From: Candidatus Latescibacterota bacterium
Lineage (GTDB): Bacteria; JAAXHH01; JABIQT01
Direction of reading: 5' to 3'
DNA length: 5,477 nucleotides
Assembly (NCBI GenBank): GCA_018667995.1
Contig: JABIQT010000690.1
Span: forward strand, 1-5,477
Part shown: positions 197 through 5,477 of the stretch, one piece after another
How positions within the stretch are numbered: the stretch's first letter is position 1
Layout: each line of letters starts with the position of its first letter
Position numbers and translations under genes: made by a program
Notes under the pieces: model-generated
Databases searched by the model: none
What the model was told of the DNA's origin: nothing
Seen by the model: the letters and a program-made list of their open reading frames with translations, nothing else

Positions 197-298
197 TTGG
201 CACAGTGTAGATTTTGTGACACACTTTTCGACACAATCGCCATAGCGCTTGGCACCGATTCTTGGCATCTTATAGGACGAAAGGGATACAATGCCAAG
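197..298. repeat. TTGGCAY repeats and inverted repeat over the integrase start codon
   Basis: TTGGCAC occurs at 197-203 and 249-255, and TTGGCAT at 262-268. The last copy, extended to CTTGGCAT (261-268), has a perfect 8-bp inverted partner ATGCCAAG at 291-298, which contains the integrase ATG. The ribosome binding site lies in the 22-nt interval between the arms. The repeats could be protein-binding sites (excisionase, regulator or integrase). In an mRNA starting further upstream, the two arms could form a stem that hides the start codon. Confidence 0.5.
249..276 (+). promoter_or_regulatory. Possible integrase promoter
   Basis: TTGGCA (249-254, five of six matches to TTGACA) is separated by 16 bp from TATAGG (271-276, four of six matches to TATAAT). 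Transcription would begin near 283, leaving a leader of only about 8 nt and part of the AAGGG ribosome binding site. That is short and makes the call doubtful. The spacer contains one of the TTGGCAT repeats, so a protein bound there would block this promoter. Confidence 0.3.
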
Positions 299-1331
299 GA
301 AGACCGATAGTGTTTATGAGATAGGCCAGGTGAGACTCCGGAAGCGCGAGAATCGCTGGCAAGCCCTATACACTACACCCGAGGGGCGGCAACGCAAGAG
401 CCTTAAGACCCCTTATCTCGAAATCGCAAAAACCAAGGCGAGAGAGATCGACGAGGCCCTGAGTCGAGGCGACTACGAGTCCATAGCCAGTCACAGCCGT
501 AGCCATGGGATGACCTTCTCAGACCTCTGCGACGAGTTCCGAACCAACTACAAAGGCTGGGCCCCGAGCACTTGGGCCTCGACGGGGCCAACCATCAACG
601 TGCTTGTCGAGGCGTTCGGAGACACCTCCCTGGCAAAGCTGTCGACTCGAGCAATTGAAGGCTACTTGGCGAGGAAGCAAGACGAAGGTTGGTCGGTGGC
701 GTCGTACAACCGCTGCCGGTCGTGCCTGTCAACCATCTTCGGAAGCGGCATCCGCTGGGGCTATCTCCCTCGCAATCCGGTGGAGCCTATCAGCATGCTA
801 CGGGAACAAGAGAAACTCCCGAAGCCCTATTCGGAAGAGGAGCTTGGCCGTTTGCTCGGCAAGCTTCACGGGACCTCTAAGGACGTGGCCTCGATTGCCG
901 TGGACACCGGCATGCGGAAGGGCGAACTCAGGAGACTTAGATGGAACGATGTCGATTTCGACAAGTCGATGATCCGAGTACAGCACACAAAGAACAAGAC
1001 GCCTCGCGAAATCCCAATGACGCATCGTGTTAGAGAGATTCTTGAGCGCCATCGCACAGAGAATGCTGCAGGAAAGGTTGCCTCGCTCTCAGTCTTTGGA
1101 AATGCCGCTGACATCCTTAAGGCTGTCAGGATGGCCGGTGAAGAGGCTGGCATCTCCTCTGCCACCGTCCATCGCCTTCGCGATACGTTTTGCACCCGAC
1201 TAGCAGATCGTGGTGTTCAAGTTGACCGCATCAGAGCTCTTGCTGGTCACTCAGATATCAGGATGACACTCAGGTATACGGAGACTCGTGAAGCAGGCCT
1301 TAGAGAGGCGATCGCCGCCCTGGAGGCTTAA
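291..1331 (+). CDS. int: Tyrosine recombinase, integrase of the element
   Basis: A complete 346-aa site-specific recombinase that would cut and join DNA at attachment sites through a 3'-phosphotyrosine intermediate. The C-terminal catalytic domain (about 175-346) shows every active-site residue: Arg209 in TGMRKGELRRL, Lys234 in TKNKTPREIP, His294 and Arg297 in VHRLRDTF, His320 in LAGHSDIRMT and nucleophile Tyr329 in LRYTET. Residues about 70-165 form the helical core-binding domain. The basic N-terminus (1-50, with RWQALYTTPEGRQRKSL) looks like the arm-binding domain of phage and island integrases. The ATG at 291 follows AAGGG at 281-285 with a 5-nt gap. The gene lies next to short direct repeats and converges on an excisionase-like gene with 2 nt between stop codons, which supports an integrase of a mobile element. 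Length and motifs are intact, so it is probably functional. Recognition sites are not known. Confidence 0.95.
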   Translation: MPRKTDSVYEIGQVRLRKRENRWQALYTTPEGRQRKSLKTPYLEIAKTKAREIDEALSRGDYESIASHSRSHGMTFSDLCDEFRTNYKGWAPSTWASTGPTINVLVEAFGDTSLAKLSTRAIEGYLARKQDEGWSVASYNRCRSCLSTIFGSGIRWGYLPRNPVEPISMLREQEKLPKPYSEEELGRLLGKLHGTSKDVASIAVDTGMRKGELRRLRWNDVDFDKSMIRVQHTKNKTPREIPMTHRVREILERHRTENAAGKVASLSVFGNAADILKAVRMAGEEAGISSATVHRLRDTFCTRLADRGVQVDRIRALAGHSDIRMTLRYTETREAGLREAIAALEA

Positions 1332-1333
1332 GG

Positions 1334-1567
1334 CTACCTCAGATTCTCCCTCTTTGTATTGTTGGCTGCGAAGGCCTCAAGATCTTCGATTCGGATACCT
1401 CGACGGCGACCGCACTTGAACGACGGTATCTCTCCTGAACTGATCAGCATGAACGTCTTCGACCGGCTGAGGTTCAGAAAGTATGCCGATTCCTCGACGC
1501 TCAGTACGCACCTGGGAACACCATTGGCCGAATACTCGGCCCTCACACGTTTCTTAGCTGTTCCCAT
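1334..1567 (-). CDS. Excisionase-like small HTH DNA-binding protein
   Basis: A 77-aa basic protein of the helix-turn-helix excisionase / MerR-like group (HTH_17 type). Residues 21-45 (LSVEESAYFLNLSRSKTFML) form the HTH: the VEESAYFLNLS helix, a turn, then a recognition helix. It is followed by the usual wing ISSGEIPSFKCGRRRGIRIEDLEAF (43-67), in which a basic patch leads into a closing helix. Such proteins bend DNA at attachment sites to favour excision, or act as small transcription factors. It is the last gene of the minus-strand cassette. Its ATG at 1567 lies inside the end of the ATPase gene (14-nt overlap, different frame), so translational coupling is likely, and the visible Shine-Dalgarno is weak (AGGG). 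Facing the integrase with a 2-nt gap supports the excisionase reading, but a generic regulator cannot be excluded. Confidence 0.85.
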   Translation of the reverse strand: MGTAKKRVRAEYSANGVPRCVLSVEESAYFLNLSRSKTFMLISSGEIPSFKCGRRRGIRIEDLEAFAANNTKRENLR

Positions 1568-2711
1568 TGAGCCCTAACACCTTCTTGATTGCACCTTTTC
1601 CTGTAGCGAACAATCCACGGCCCTCTATCCCGTTGCCTCCCGAGTCAATCGAATCAACAGTCAAAGGTTTTCCATACGGGGACGTTTGACCGTTGACTCC
1701 ATTGATTCCGTCGACAGGCAGGTAGGGCTGCTCTCTGCCTATAGGCTTCCCCTTGATCAAACGGCCAGCCAACCGCAGCCGCTTCATTGTCCTGCTTACT
1801 TGTCCCTTGTCGCGCTGAATCTTTGCGGCCACCGCAGTAGTCGTCACGATCTCTCCCTGCGCAACCAACTCGTGAATCGCAGTCAGGAGGTCCTCTTCAT
1901 GCTCGGATGGCTGAGGACGGCTCGCGTCACCAACAACCGTCCATAGGCAGGTGGTTTTCTCGAACTCAAGTAGAAGCGAAACCTCCTCTTCCATGTCTCG
2001 ACCGACTACATCAAGAGTCGCACCTTGTGCCCCCTTCTGTAGCACAAGAATCGCATCTGCCGTGGCGGTCTTGGCGGTAGAGCCCCGAACTCGGTCGAGG
2101 AGCGACCCCTCACTGCCCTTTCTAACGTGATCGATGACGAGGACGGAAATGTGATTGTCGAGAGCGAACCTTTGGTATGGTCCCAACTCCTCACTCATCT
2201 GCCCCGCGTCATTCTGGTCTACGCCACCTCCGGTTGCCCGAGCCAGTGTGTCGATGACAACGAGATCAGGCATTGTCGCTCTCAGCTCTTGCTCGACGGT
2301 CTCCCAACCTGGCCATTCTGTTGCTCGCCAGATCACATTGTCTGTTCGATCGGCTCCCTGCCTACGCAATCGAGACTGCAATCTTCGCCCGTTGTCCTCC
2401 AGGGCATAAACGAGTGCGGACCCTGCTTTGACCGGACGACCGAACATCTCTCCCCCTTCGCCAACTGCAGATGCACACTGCATTGAAAGCCAGCTCTTTC
2501 CCACCTTCGGTGGCCCTGCGAGAATTGTGAGCCCCTCTGGGATTAGAGATGGAATGATCCATCGAAGGGGCGAAAATTCCGCATCAAGAAGCTCTCTCGT
2601 ACTCCATTGCTGGACCGTTTCCACGCCGCTCATTGTGTTCACTATTTGTGCAATGCTCGCTTGGCCCGAATGGCGGGGCGCGGAACCAGGGTTTGAAGTC
2701 TTATCGTTCAT
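1554..2711 (-). CDS. RepA/RecA-like AAA_25 ATPase, probable replication helicase of the element
   Basis: A 385-aa P-loop ATPase of the RecA/DnaB-like RepA group (AAA_25), as found in plasmids, phages and integrative elements. Walker A is GPPKVGKS (66-73) and Walker B is DLVVIDTLAR (149-158, Asp154). VLVIDHVRKG (190-199) carries the sensor-like His195, and the late motif VVGRDMEEE (235-243) is typical of this family. Residues about 272-330 (EEDLLTAIHELV ... GQVSRTMKRLRLAGRL) look like a winged helix, followed by a low-complexity Gly/Asn tail (333-385) with repeated VNG/VDS-type units. Relatives are hexameric helicases or loaders acting at replication origins, and that role is inferred here. 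No primase or initiator gene is visible. The ATG at 2711 follows GAGAGGA (2716-2722). The gene is the middle one of a three-gene minus-strand cassette after the HTH regulator (63-nt gap). A catabolic or repair ATPase is unlikely given this context. Confidence 0.88.
   Translation of the reverse strand: MNDKTSNPGSAPRHSGQASIAQIVNTMSGVETVQQWSTRELLDAEFSPLRWIIPSLIPEGLTILAGPPKVGKSWLSMQCASAVGEGGEMFGRPVKAGSALVYALEDNGRRLQSRLRRQGADRTDNVIWRATEWPGWETVEQELRATMPDLVVIDTLARATGGGVDQNDAGQMSEELGPYQRFALDNHISVLVIDHVRKGSEGSLLDRVRGSTAKTATADAILVLQKGAQGATLDVVGRDMEEEVSLLLEFEKTTCLWTVVGDASRPQPSEHEEDLLTAIHELVAQGEIVTTTAVAAKIQRDKGQVSRTMKRLRLAGRLIKGKPIGREQPYLPVDGINGVNGQTSPYGKPLTVDSIDSGGNGIEGRGLFATGKGAIKKVLGLNGNS
1642..1708. 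repeat. Mirror-spaced array of TTGAY units inside the ATPase gene
   Basis: A 23-bp inverted repeat (1642-1664 against 1686-1708, 19 of 23 positions matching) surrounds a 21-bp centre. Each arm is itself repetitive: GTCAA/ATCAA/GTCAA start at 1644, 1653 and 1660, and TTGAC/TTGAC/TTGAT start at 1686, 1693 and 1702, with a related TCGAC at 1711. The unit spacing is 9-7 on the left and 7-9-9 on the right, exactly mirrored around 1675. In protein terms it encodes the VDGINGVNG and VDSIDS stretches of the C-terminal tail. It may be only a by-product of that repetitive peptide, or an iteron-like binding region for the element's replication. Confidence 0.5.
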
Positions 2712-2774
2712 CGTGTCCTCTCATAATGCGTGAAGCCGTGGGGCGCCCCCGCCCTGCGGCAAGATTAACTGCGG
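2712..2774 (-). promoter_or_regulatory. GC-rich spacer between regulator and ATPase genes
   Basis: This 63-nt spacer carries the ATPase ribosome binding site (GAGAGGA on the minus strand, 2716-2722, 4 nt from the ATG). It also has a perfect 10-bp palindrome GGGGCGCCCC (2740-2749) and two GCCGCAG copies on the minus strand (2769-2775 and 2754-2760, 15 bp apart). The first of these overlaps the regulator's stop codon. No T-tract follows, so this is not an intrinsic terminator. It may tune ATPase translation or be bound by the HTH protein. Confidence 0.4.
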
Positions 2775-2969
2775 CTATAGCACGTTCTCATCACTGATTA
2801 GGCGACGGACTCCCGCTGCAAGCCTCTTTCGAGTATTCCGAGTCGGCCTAACGACTTTGTCGTTGAACATTCTGCTTAGGTAGAAGACGGATAGGCCAGT
2901 CTCGCGCGAAAGGTCCTTCTTGCTGACACCCAAGGCCTGAAGAATGACCTTGATCTTCAACGGATTCAT
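2775..2969 (-). CDS. Small XRE/Cro-like HTH regulator
   Basis: A 64-aa basic protein with a Cro/C1-type helix-turn-helix. The segment VILQALGVSKKDLSRETGLSV (8-28) gives helices 1-3 of the fold, including a VSKKDLSRETGLS turn. YLSRMFNDKVV (30-40) fits the recognition helix and following loop, and RNTRKRLAAGVRRLI (44-58) is a closing helix, as in many proteins that read NDKVxPSxxTRxRI-like. It is short for a full phage repressor and has no dimerisation or peptidase domain, so it is more like Cro or a plasmid copy-control protein. It is first in the cassette with the ATPase and excisionase. The start is supported by a consensus AAGGAGG at 2975-2981 with a 5-nt spacer. A nested inverted repeat upstream (3126-3165) is its likely operator, suggesting autoregulation. 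The target is inferred. Confidence 0.85.
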   Translation of the reverse strand: MNPLKIKVILQALGVSKKDLSRETGLSVFYLSRMFNDKVVRPTRNTRKRLAAGVRRLISDENVL

Positions 2970-2974
2970 CTATT

Positions 2975-2981
2975 CCTCCTT
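2975..2981 (-). promoter_or_regulatory. Consensus ribosome binding site of the HTH regulator
   Basis: On the minus strand AAGGAGG lies 5 nt before the ATG at 2969. It is the strongest Shine-Dalgarno sequence in the window and fixes the regulator's start codon. It contrasts with the weak sites of the excisionase-like and Xer-like genes. Confidence 0.85.
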
Positions 2982-3024
2982 GCTTGTTAGAACGAAAAAA
3001 GCTCCCAGTCCCAGACACATCCCA

Positions 3025-3038
3025 AGCGGATTCCCGCT
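3025..3038 (-). repeat. Small hairpin in the regulator leader
   Basis: AGCGG (3025-3029) pairs with CCGCT (3034-3038) around a 4-nt loop. It lies about 55 nt upstream of the regulator start codon, between the larger hairpin at 3057-3100 and the ribosome binding site. A run of six T follows on the minus strand at 2995-3000, but some 25 nt further on, too far to make a standard terminator with this stem. Confidence 0.35.
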
Positions 3039-3056
3039 AAAGGTTCTGTGCCACGG

Positions 3057-3100
3057 ACCGAGAGCCTTACACCCGTCCCTCCGACGGTAAGGTCTCTGGT
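3057..3100 (-). repeat. Long imperfect hairpin with GGAGG loop in the regulator leader
   Basis: A 44-nt dyad with 17 paired positions in four blocks: ACC/GGT (3057-3059 with 3098-3100), AGAG/CTCT (3061-3064 with 3094-3097), CCTTA/TAAGG (3065-3069 with 3088-3092) and CCGTC/GACGG (3073-3077 with 3083-3087). Bulges are at 3060, 3070-3072 and 3093, and the loop is 3078-3082. On the minus strand the loop reads GGAGG, a Shine-Dalgarno sequence. If the cassette promoter is near 3119-3146, this hairpin lies in the untranslated leader, about 90-130 nt before the regulator gene. It could be an RNA control element or a folded-DNA binding site. No U-tract follows directly. Confidence 0.5.
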
Positions 3101-3118
3101 AATGTTATCTGCAGTCTA

Positions 3119-3165
3119 AGTATGCTTCCGTAAAAGAAGCAAGCAATTTCTTGCACATTACGGAA
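3119..3165 (-). promoter_or_regulatory. Candidate operator and promoter of the HTH-ATPase-excisionase cassette
   Basis: A perfect 8-bp inverted repeat, TTCCGTAA (3126-3133) and TTACGGAA (3158-3165), encloses a second one, GCAAG (3139-3143) and CTTGC (3150-3154), with nearly the same centre. On the minus strand a weak sigma70-like promoter overlaps it: TTGCTT (3146-3141), a 16-bp spacer and CATACT (3124-3119). A protein on the dyad would cover the promoter, as expected for an autoregulating HTH repressor. A further CGGAAA at 3171-3176 continues the motif. The dyad is clear; the promoter match is modest. Confidence 0.5.
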
Positions 3166-3260
3166 ACCACGGAAAAATGCGGCTATAATCGGAGAAACCA
3201 TCCGGCAGTATGCGACCCAACCGCCACAAGTTATTGCCAGTGTATGGTTGTCATCCCATG

Positions 3261-4214
3261 CTACTCTCGTTGTCTATCGGCCTCGTATCTCCGGAAAGCC
3301 TCATGTGCTGCGGCCGGGTTAACTTCCGCGTACCGAAGAGTCGTCCGGAGGCTGCGATGTCCCATCAGTTGGCGTAAAGCGAGTGCATCAATGACGCCTG
3401 CCCTTTCCGAACCGAACGAATGGCGCAACTGATGCATTGAGGCCGGACTGCCACGATACGAAATCCCTTCTGAATACTTCCGAAACAGACGATAGGCCAT
3501 GGCGTAGCTAAGGCGATCACCTGTTGCTTCGGTGTACTGGCGAGAAACGAAAAGGGCACCTGTCGATACTCTGCCCCGATCACGCAAGTAACGCTCGATG
3601 AGCTTTGCAGATCTCTTCGATAGGAATCCCACTCTCTCTCGGGAACCCTTCCCCCAGATACGGACCGTTCCCTCTCTAAGATCAAGATCCTCCACGTCGA
3701 TATTGAGCGCCTCTTGAATTCGAACACCAGAATCGTAAAGCAAGGTGAACAGTGCCTTATCTCGGTATGGTTCGGCCCGTGAGAGAATCGTGGCCGCGTC
3801 ACTAGGGGCCAGTGGTCTCGGTAGTGCAGCTGGAGCCTTCTTCCGCCTCAAACCACTGAGGGGTGAGCGGACGATACCCGACAGGAATTCGTCACTCTCT
3901 GCTTCTCGCCCAAGTGACGCAGTCCAGCCAAAGAGATTCTGCAAGGTCCCGAAGTGTCTGTTGTACGTTGAGATAGCCACGGGCTCGCCAGATCGCTTGA
4001 CGAGGCCATCCAGGTAAGCCTTTAGCTCCTTCTTCGTAAGCTCGTTGATTTGCCAGTTTCCGTAGTCGACGGCAAATCGCTTGAGATCTGTCGCGAATGC
4101 TCGGCGTGTGTTCGGATTTAGGTCACGCGACAGGAACCCTTCGATCGCGCTGTAGACAGTCAGTTTTTCGTCTCGCCGCCCGGACGCTTTCATCAGATCA
4201 TATGTCGACTTCAA
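3261..4214 (-). CDS. XerC/XerD-type tyrosine recombinase
   Basis: A complete 317-aa recombinase, close in length to XerC/XerD (about 300 aa). Residues about 18-105 are the SAM-like core-binding domain (SAIEGFLSRDLNPNTRRAF ... STYNRHFGTLQNLFGW), and 130-310 are catalytic. All active-site residues are present: Arg165 (YDSGVRIQEAL), Lys189 (WGKGSRERV), His261 and Arg264 (MHQLRHSF), His286 (LMGHRSLRTT) and Tyr295 (LRYAEVNP). There is no arm-binding domain like that of the integrase at 291-1331, and the two proteins resemble each other only at the active site. The start is taken as TTG at 4214 with CAGG 5 nt upstream; an in-frame ATG at 4193 (residue 8) lacks a ribosome binding site. A TTGACA promoter overlapping a 28-bp dyad lies just upstream. 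It could resolve dimers, act as a single-Xer system on that dyad, or be a second integrase of the element. No integron integrase signature was noticed. Confidence 0.93.
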   Translation of the reverse strand: MKSTYDLMKASGRRDEKLTVYSAIEGFLSRDLNPNTRRAFATDLKRFAVDYGNWQINELTKKELKAYLDGLVKRSGEPVAISTYNRHFGTLQNLFGWTASLGREAESDEFLSGIVRSPLSGLRRKKAPAALPRPLAPSDAATILSRAEPYRDKALFTLLYDSGVRIQEALNIDVEDLDLREGTVRIWGKGSRERVGFLSKRSAKLIERYLRDRGRVSTGALFVSRQYTEATGDRLSYAMAYRLFRKYSEGISYRGSPASMHQLRHSFGSERAGVIDALALRQLMGHRSLRTTLRYAEVNPAAAHEAFRRYEADRQRE

Positions 4215-4274
4215 GATAGCCTGCCAATGTTCGCCCAGATTCGGGGCCGTAACTGGTTGTTTTCGCTTGCCCCT

Positions 4275-4303
4275 ATTGTCTTGAGTTCATGATACTATGT
4301 CAA
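4275..4303 (-). promoter_or_regulatory. Sigma70-like promoter of the Xer-like recombinase gene
   Basis: On the minus strand a perfect TTGACA -35 (plus-strand 4298-4303) is followed by a 17-bp spacer and GACAAT (4275-4280, four of six matches to TATAAT). Transcription would start near 4268, giving a leader of about 54 nt before the TTG start. The -35 box is at the centre of the 28-bp dyad at 4286-4313, so any protein bound to the dyad, including the recombinase itself, would exclude RNA polymerase. Confidence 0.6.
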
Positions 4304-4313
4304 GTATCTTGAA
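4286..4313. other. 28-bp dyad with dif-like geometry (11-6-11)
   Basis: The left arm TTCATGATACT (4286-4296) and right arm AGTATCTTGAA (4303-4313) are inverted copies with 10 of 11 matches, separated by the 6-bp centre ATGTCA (4297-4302). An 11-bp arm, 6-bp centre, 11-bp arm layout is that of XerCD dif core sites. The dyad lies 72 bp upstream of a XerC/D-type recombinase gene, and single-Xer systems often keep their site next to the gene. It also covers the -35 box of that gene, so a transcriptional operator is an equally simple explanation. Seen directly: the dyad, its dimensions and its position. Inferred: recombination. Confidence 0.5.
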
Positions 4314-4379
4314 TTCCAATACGACGTCTCCAATTTCATGCCAGGTAACACCAATCAGTCATCATCATTGAACGACGTG

Positions 4380-4408
4380 TTGATGATCAAACCTATATGT
4401 GATATTGT
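4380..4408 (+). promoter_or_regulatory. Possible promoter of the surface-protein gene
   Basis: TTGATG (4380-4385) and TATTGT (4403-4408) each match the sigma70 consensus at four of six positions and are exactly 17 bp apart. Transcription would begin near 4415, leaving a leader of about 88 nt before the ATG at 4503. The leader would include the hairpin at 4430-4452. Matches are partial, so this is tentative. Confidence 0.35.
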
Positions 4409-4429
4409 GTTCTTATGTGCGCACCTTTT

Positions 4430-4452
4430 CGCGGGGAAAGACATGTCCCGCG
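4430..4452 (+). repeat. GC-rich hairpin in the leader of the surface-protein gene
   Basis: CGCGGG (4430-4435) pairs with CCCGCG (4447-4452), extendable by one G-T wobble, around a loop that contains the palindrome GACATGTC (4439-4446). No T-tract follows, so it is not a terminator. It lies between the candidate promoter and the start codon, and its loop includes an unused in-frame ATG at 4443. Confidence 0.4.
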
Positions 4453-4491
4453 TTGTGGCGAACTTGGAGGGTCTGGATGAAGAATGCACGC

Positions 4492-4496
4492 GGAGG
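4492..4496 (+). promoter_or_regulatory. Ribosome binding site that fixes the surface-protein start
   Basis: GGAGG lies 6 nt before the ATG at 4503. Earlier in-frame ATGs at 4338, 4383 and 4443 have weaker or no such site, and only the start at 4503 puts the hydrophobic signal-peptide core within about 20 residues of the N-terminus. Confidence 0.75.
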
Positions 4497-4502
4497 TTAC
4501 CG

Positions 4503-5477
4503 ATGACGACAGTATCGGGCCTCGTGTCCAACAAGCGTGAACTAGTGTGGGCCCGGGGCCATTTACTGCTGGTCGCATTCATATGGTTGACTGTCGGACG
4601 GGTTAACGCCAAGGAACCACTAGTCATAGCCGAGAGACAGGCTCCACTTGCAGTCTCTGAGACGGTTCGAGGCCCAATGAGAGCCGCGAAACCATCAGAA
4701 GCTCAACTGTTGCAACAAGTGTCGGCAACCATCTTCCCCGGATTCTACCAGACCTTTACCACAACAATGACTGGTATTTCAACCGTGTCCGTTGATGTAT
4801 GGTCAGCCGAGTTCCCTAGCGGGTGGTCTCCCCCCGCAGGGATAACCCACTTCACAACTCAAGCGCTCGGGCCGGTAGTCTGTTGCGGGGCCCCGACCAT
4901 CTCTCACAGGGTTGAAGTAGCTAGCAACGTGGCTCCGGGGACATATCAATTTGCGGTTGAGTACGTCTGGAGAACGGCACTAGGTACATACGTAGGCCTT
5001 GAATGGGTCAGTTTCACAATTACAGTGGTGAACCAAAATACCGCTCCAACTCTGGGATCTGTAGGGAGTCGAACCGTCAACGAGGGCCAGAATCTAACAG
5101 TTCAGCTGTCAGCATCCGATCCGGACGGCGATCCACTAACCTATTCTGCCACGATCAACCCAAGTGGACCAGTCTCGTCTGGGACCGTCAGCCTGAGTGG
5201 CAACATCTTCAGCTTTACACCCAGCTTTAGCGAGGCAGGCTCATATACAGTGGCCTTCACCGTAAGTGATGGAAACGGTGGTGAAGACTCGGAGACCATC
5301 ACGGTGACCGTCAATAACGTAAACCAGGCCCCAAGCCTGAGCAGCATTGGCAATCAGTCCGTCGCTGAGGGGCAAACACTATCACTGAGTCTCACTGGAT
5401 CCGATCCGGACGGCGATCCACTAACCTATTCTGCCACGATCAACCCAAGTGGACCAGTCTCGTCTGGGACCGTCAGC
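4503..5477 (+). CDS. Secreted tandem-95-type Ig/cadherin-like repeat protein (3' end outside window)
   Basis: The first 325 residues of an open frame with no stop before the window ends. Residues 1-36 look like a Sec signal peptide: basic start (NKRELVWARGH), hydrophobic core LLLVAFIWLTVG (21-32) and a likely cut after VNA (36). Residues about 85-177 form an unassigned beta-rich region (W100, PSGW, VVCCGAP, NVAPGTYQFAVEY) that recalls extracellular beta-sandwich modules. From 179 a 95-residue repeat starts (NTAPTLGSVGSRTVNEGQ) and begins again at 274 (NQAPSLSSIGNQSVAEGQ). Each repeat carries SDPDGDPLTYSA (205-216; 300-311), an acidic motif like the calcium-binding loops of cadherin-like folds. 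The first repeat ends with YTVAFTVSDGNGG and TITVTVNNV. Such proteins act outside the cell in adhesion or surface layers, often with sorting or anchoring domains at the unseen C-terminus. The start is chosen from GGAGG at 4492-4496. The gene is divergent from the Xer-like gene and probably not part of the mobile element. Confidence 0.85.
   Translation, partial: MTTVSGLVSNKRELVWARGHLLLVAFIWLTVGRVNAKEPLVIAERQAPLAVSETVRGPMRAAKPSEAQLLQQVSATIFPGFYQTFTTTMTGISTVSVDVWSAEFPSGWSPPAGITHFTTQALGPVVCCGAPTISHRVEVASNVAPGTYQFAVEYVWRTALGTYVGLEWVSFTITVVNQNTAPTLGSVGSRTVNEGQNLTVQLSASDPDGDPLTYSATINPSGPVSSGTVSLSGNIFSFTPSFSEAGSYTVAFTVSDGNGGEDSETITVTVNNVNQAPSLSSIGNQSVAEGQTLSLSLTGSDPDGDPLTYSATINPSGPVSSGTVS
5037..5477 (+). 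repeat. 285-bp coding repeat with a 79-nt perfectly identical block
   Basis: Two copies of a 285-nt (95-codon) unit begin at 5037 and 5322; the second is cut by the window end. The first 77 nt of each unit are strongly diverged. Then positions 5114-5192 and 5399-5477 are identical over all 79 nt, including third codon positions, up to the end of the window. The switch from divergence to identity is abrupt. It indicates recent recombination or gene conversion between repeats rather than protein-level constraint alone. Confidence 0.85.

Follow-up and report, generated by a model that had tools for sequence, protein, structure and literature searches.

A candidate recombination core site overlapping a promoter-like sequence upstream of an orphan tyrosine recombinase gene

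Recombination sites that overlap promoters are already known, so the principle considered here is not new, and the arrangement we describe, if real, is of an ordinary kind. Tn3-family transposons with TnpI or TnpS/TnpT systems place the resolution site, complete with promoters and an inverted-repeat core at which strands are exchanged, immediately in front of the recombinase gene (PMC7157771); in Tn5401, binding of TnpI at its site also modulates expression of tnpI and tnpA (PMC7157771). Prophages provide a parallel, as the attL of KplE1 overlaps the int promoter and its integrase IntS is negatively autoregulated, and this combination of an att site over the integrase promoter with negative autoregulation is common among prophages (PMC2951348).

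The window that we analysed is the whole of a 5,477-bp contig (C403; NCBI JABIQT010000690.1) from a fragmented metagenome assembly (6.06 Mb in 1165 contigs, 85% complete) of a bacterium in a poorly sampled phylum. A 288-bp intergenic region (4215-4502) separates a gene for a 317-aa tyrosine recombinase on the minus strand (3261-4214) from a divergent gene on the plus strand (4503-5477), and within it lies a dyad, TTCATGATACT-ATGTCA-AGTATCTTGAA, at 4286-4313 (no strand assigned), which we propose as a recombinase-binding core. The original prediction proved exact on recheck in the sequence and coordinates of this dyad, in its 11-6-11 layout and in its 10 of 11 inverted matches; the symmetry also continues outward, giving an extended 14-6-14 dyad at 4283-4316 (no strand assigned) with 12 of 14 inverted matches. 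G or C occupies 8 of the 28 bases of the core, whereas the intergenic region has 47% G+C. No other dyad of such quality with a 6-bp spacer occurs in the window, where whole-window shuffles lead one to expect 0.05 with that spacer and 1.4 with spacers of 0-20. Dinucleotide shuffles of the intergenic region equalled the dyad in 0.3% of cases with a 6-bp spacer, 0.85% with spacers of 4-8 and 3.6% with spacers of 0-20, and a separate dyad score over spacers of 4-10 gave P = 0.035. As a control, we applied the same scoring to the 250-bp regions preceding about 41 other recombinase genes, each against its own shuffles, and four of these regions reached P <= 0.05. By itself, the dyad thus stands moderately above chance and is suggestive, not compelling.

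A perfect TTGACA (4303-4298, minus strand) covers the centre of the dyad and is followed, after a 17-bp spacer, by GACAAT (4280-4275), which together form a promoter-like site at 4275-4303 on the minus strand, called by consensus match only. The prediction that the dyad covers a -35 box therefore stands for the hexamer itself, but the predicted promoter is not significant alone, because one such site was found where 0.4 +/- 0.8 are expected. We also noted two possible extra half-sites, both of which may be coincidence. The stronger, GACTTCAAGATA at 4207-4218 on the plus strand, matches GARTTCAWGATA at 11 of 12 positions (shuffle P about 0.008 for one 11/12 half-site among 317 flanking bases) and would fit an irs-like layout; it is partly coding, covers the TTG start and may be fortuitous because it overlaps the beginning of the recombinase gene. 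The weaker, GAACTCAAGACA at 4277-4288 on the minus strand, matches at 10 of 12 (shuffle P about 0.09) and overlaps the outer end of the dyad, of which it is not independent.

Pfam domains, alignment and trees all identify the neighbouring protein as a tyrosine recombinase (Phage_integrase, PF00589, 6.5e-27; Phage_int_SAM_4, 7e-7), and its catalytic set is complete, with R165, K189, H261, R264, H286 and Y295 all invariant in our alignment. The claim of an intact recombinase gene 72 bp from the dyad was borne out, the distance being 71-72 bp from a TTG start at 4214; from the first in-frame ATG, at 4193, it is about 93 bp, a start that fits because the N-termini of relatives are shorter. The protein scores 107-125 bits on XerC and XerD models with cut-offs of 330-335, and 81 bits on the XerS model with a cut-off of 267. 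Its closest named relatives are recombinases of cyanobacterial plasmids, at about 30-34% identity, with which it groups at 100/99 in a maximum-likelihood tree spanning the cyanobacterial and 32 XerC/D-type proteins, outside the latter (95/87 in another tree). Because the recombinase forms a long branch, we are more confident that it falls outside the Xer proteins than of where exactly it belongs. A block reading LMGHxxxxTTLRYxxV is common to the recombinase and the cyanobacterial group, and nearly all the Xer proteins compared read LGHxxxxTTQxYTxV. Of the 12 cyanobacterial plasmid loci examined, eight have a Tn3-family transposase, entire or fragmentary, next to the recombinase gene, and in 11 the recombinase gene diverges from a gene annotated as zinc-ribbon or HTH.

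Searches for an orthologue in which conservation could be followed returned XerC/D-type proteins exclusively (TTQxYTxV-type, not TTLRY) from the phylum set, which comprises 16 genomes including the source and 15 from other families, and from panels of 384 and 392 genomes; a scan of genome contigs added one distant match, and viral contigs gave none. The dyad itself is single-copy: a pattern search with 3 mismatches found no second copy in its own 6-Mb assembly, the 15 relatives yielded none, the exact sequence was absent from viral contigs, and the 18 weak matches inspected from half-site-plus-centre searches of its own assembly all lacked a second arm. Likewise, the upstream intergenic DNA had no meaningful match among plasmids and phages, and the regions upstream of 11 cyanobacterial relatives contained no common dyad of 11-6-11 layout. 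The suggestion of an insertion hotspot is unsupported, because the search for further copies, at element ends or in relatives, yielded none in its own assembly, the 15 relatives or the viral contigs. A resolution site requires no more than one copy per element, but integration would be expected to leave a partner site.

The remainder of the contig resembles an integrative element, with genes for an integrase (291-1331), an excisionase-type HTH protein (HTH_17, 1334-1567), an AAA_25 ATPase (1554-2711) and a Cro-like HTH protein (HTH_26, 2775-2969). Another genome of the order (G015, L071:11091-15077) has a related set of integrase, excisionase and AAA_25 genes close to a tRNA-Leu(GAG) gene; this set includes a Prim-Pol/AAA_25 fusion and has no second recombinase, so the recombinase studied here is not an invariant member of it. 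We found no direct repeat of at least 8 bp, such as attL and attR might form, between the flanks of the gene block (1-290 and 4215-4520), and the two ends of an element are thus not both visible in the window. A long inverted pair (126-141/4411-4426) and scattered 12-16-nt repeats were judged to be chance. Several other features of the contig may be recorded. A strong hairpin at 27-59, with perfect 15-bp arms followed by a T-rich stretch, probably terminates a gene that lies off the left end of the contig; tandem 10-bp units AGTCCACCGT AGTCCACCGA AGTCCAGTAG at 164-193, upstream of the integrase gene at 291, are possible arm-type sites; and a dyad, TTCCGTAA ... TTACGGAA, at 3126-3165, with GCAAG/CTTGC nested in it, lies upstream of the gene for the Cro-like HTH protein, for which it is a candidate operator. 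The divergent neighbour, whose proposed start at 4503 rests on a GGAGG 6 bp upstream, probably encodes an exported Ig/cadherin-repeat protein; it runs off the contig and is not part of the recombinase module. It carries two copies (74% identical) of a 285-bp repeat unit at 5014-5477, which are probably the reason that the contig ends at 5477. Elsewhere in the assembly, a probable integron integrase (L045:212-1249, G000 contig C98; TIGR02249, 388 bits with a cut-off of 265) adjoins phytanoyl-CoA-dioxygenase-like genes.

We tentatively favour, at a probability of roughly 0.4, the reading that the dyad serves the adjacent orphan recombinase as a core site of res/irs or att type, overlaps the recombinase's own promoter and so could allow autoregulation, because its anatomy, with a core site, a promoter overlap and an intact recombinase gene, fits known modules. 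From that anatomy we infer binding, cleavage and recombination at the dyad, a partner site and repression. Two protomers would bind the inverted arms of 11-14 bp each, strands would be exchanged within the 6-bp centre ATGTCA, and the role would be cointegrate or multimer resolution, or integration of a mobile element, not resolution of chromosome dimers. As the predicted -35 box overlies the region of crossover, recombinase bound there should keep RNA polymerase out and so repress its own gene. The proposal that one protein both recombines here and represses itself accordingly survives as plausible in its account of a dyad over a predicted -35 box beside a complete recombinase gene, but not in its analogy to single-Xer systems. 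The exact dyad in core geometry upstream of the gene (shuffle P 0.003 when a 6-bp spacer is demanded), its AT-rich core, the full catalytic set and conserved family blocks, the extra 11/12 half-site, the well-supported grouping with recombinases so often found beside Tn3-family genes, and the position of TnpI and TnpS/TnpT sites immediately upstream of their genes (PMC7157771) all argue for a core site. Against it stand a P that rises to 0.035 once the spacer is free, four control regions that do as well, a dyad of which no second copy was found, 11 cyanobacterial relatives with no shared dyad of this layout upstream, panels that returned no orthologue in which conservation could be followed, and a 5.5-kb contig that contains no Tn3 transposase. 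We regard as improbable the more specific version of this reading, in which the recombinase is a transposon-free relative of the Tn3-associated enzymes and works unaided at a minimal core of 28-34 bp placed exactly over its own -35 box, such that recombination competence and repression would be one binding event.

Among the alternatives, a single-recombinase dif/Xer module for chromosome dimer resolution, of the XerH/difH or XerS/difSL type, has been largely refuted already and is very unlikely. The 11-6-11 layout and adjacency to the gene speak for it, as does the TCTTGAA of the right arm, which recurs in the right arm of difSL (TTTTCTTGAAA), but the same assembly encodes a canonical XerD (contig C444, 368 bits with a cut-off of 330), the relatives in the phylum each encode two XerC/D-type proteins (24-30% identical to the recombinase of the window), and at least one of them has a canonical dif, TCGCATAATGTATATTATGTTAAAT, whose right arm shares 2 of 11 bases in register with the arms of the dyad. 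The reading as a solitary Xer module is therefore not upheld, given the XerD gene, the paired Xer genes of relatives and the dif of one of them, nor is the comparison with single-recombinase dif/Xer systems for a protein that falls outside the XerC/D group and below every Xer cut-off. A more serious competitor, though unlikely in our estimation, is that the dyad has no function of its own and is a chance or weak symmetry, such as an AT-rich promoter region may contain, that happens to lie over the recombinase promoter. A shuffle P of about 3.5% with a free spacer, the roughly 10% of compared recombinase upstream regions that score equally against their own shuffles, and a single-copy dyad for which no conservation is demonstrable are all consistent with chance, which accounts less readily for the 0.3% obtained with the exact 6-bp spacer, for symmetry that runs on to 12 of 14 positions and for a location exactly at the promoter-like site.

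The dyad could also be an operator through which another dimeric regulator, such as the Cro/C1-type HTH protein encoded at 2775-2969 or a host factor, controls the recombinase gene and possibly its divergent neighbour as well. Classic operators take the form of a palindrome over a -35 box, as the dyad does, and the element does encode a small HTH_26 protein. Cro/C1-type regulators usually bind their own promoters, but the half-site of the dyad is absent from 2970-3260, where the different dyad at 3126-3165 is found instead, and we consider an operator rather improbable. Less probable still is an attL or attR junction of an element that encodes either the recombinase or the 291-1331 integrase, in which case the divergent surface-protein gene would be host DNA. 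Such a junction would suit the mobile-element-like character of the block at 291-4214 (two integrase-family genes, an excisionase-type HTH gene and AAA_25) next to a host-like surface gene, and overlap of att with an autoregulated integrase promoter is familiar from prophages (PMC2951348); what counts against it is that 1-290 and 4215-4520 have no direct repeat of at least 8 bp in common, that its own assembly yielded no half-site-plus-centre partner with a second arm, and that the other genomes of the phylum, all from other families, supplied no empty site.

If the site is real, this poorly sampled phylum would have yielded a small pair of recombinase and site that might serve as a tool for recombination, and a recombinase lineage known here from cyanobacterial plasmids would gain a link to another phylum. 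How closely a core site of this kind would follow described systems varies from one to the next. XerH/difH and XerS/difSL likewise combine a single recombinase with a neighbouring dyad (PMC5357621, PMC2731167), but XerH and XerS are the sole chromosomal Xer proteins and act at the terminus, whereas here a canonical XerD exists and the recombinase lies outside the Xer group. IntS of KplE1 resembles the proposed module in having a recombination site on the integrase's own promoter (PMC2951348), although it is a phage integrase with arm sites and an RDF and, unlike here, attL and attR are both identified. The cyanobacterial plasmid recombinases that adjoin Tn3-family transposases and divergent HTH or double-zinc-ribbon genes (for example on NC_011737.1 and NZ_AP026079.1) are the nearest named relatives by identity and the sister group in the tree; the window has neither zinc-ribbon partner nor transposase, and their loci share no common upstream dyad. 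TnpS/TnpT-rst of the Tn4651 subgroup combines a tyrosine recombinase with an inverted-repeat core between divergent genes (PMC7157771), as the window does, but its divergent gene encodes a TnpT-like helper in place of a surface protein. Neither a Tn3-family transposase nor terminal inverted repeats were found in the window, whose contig stops 1.2 kb past the dyad. The TnpI/irs systems of Tn4430 and Tn5401 possess accessory direct repeats DR1 and DR2, whereas our locus shows one 11/12 candidate half-site and an overlapping 10/12 one; in them, as proposed here, the site lies just upstream of the tyrosine recombinase's own gene and has promoters within it (PMC7157771), and the inverted-repeat core that characterizes them, IR1-IR2, has its likeness here in the dyad at 4283-4316.
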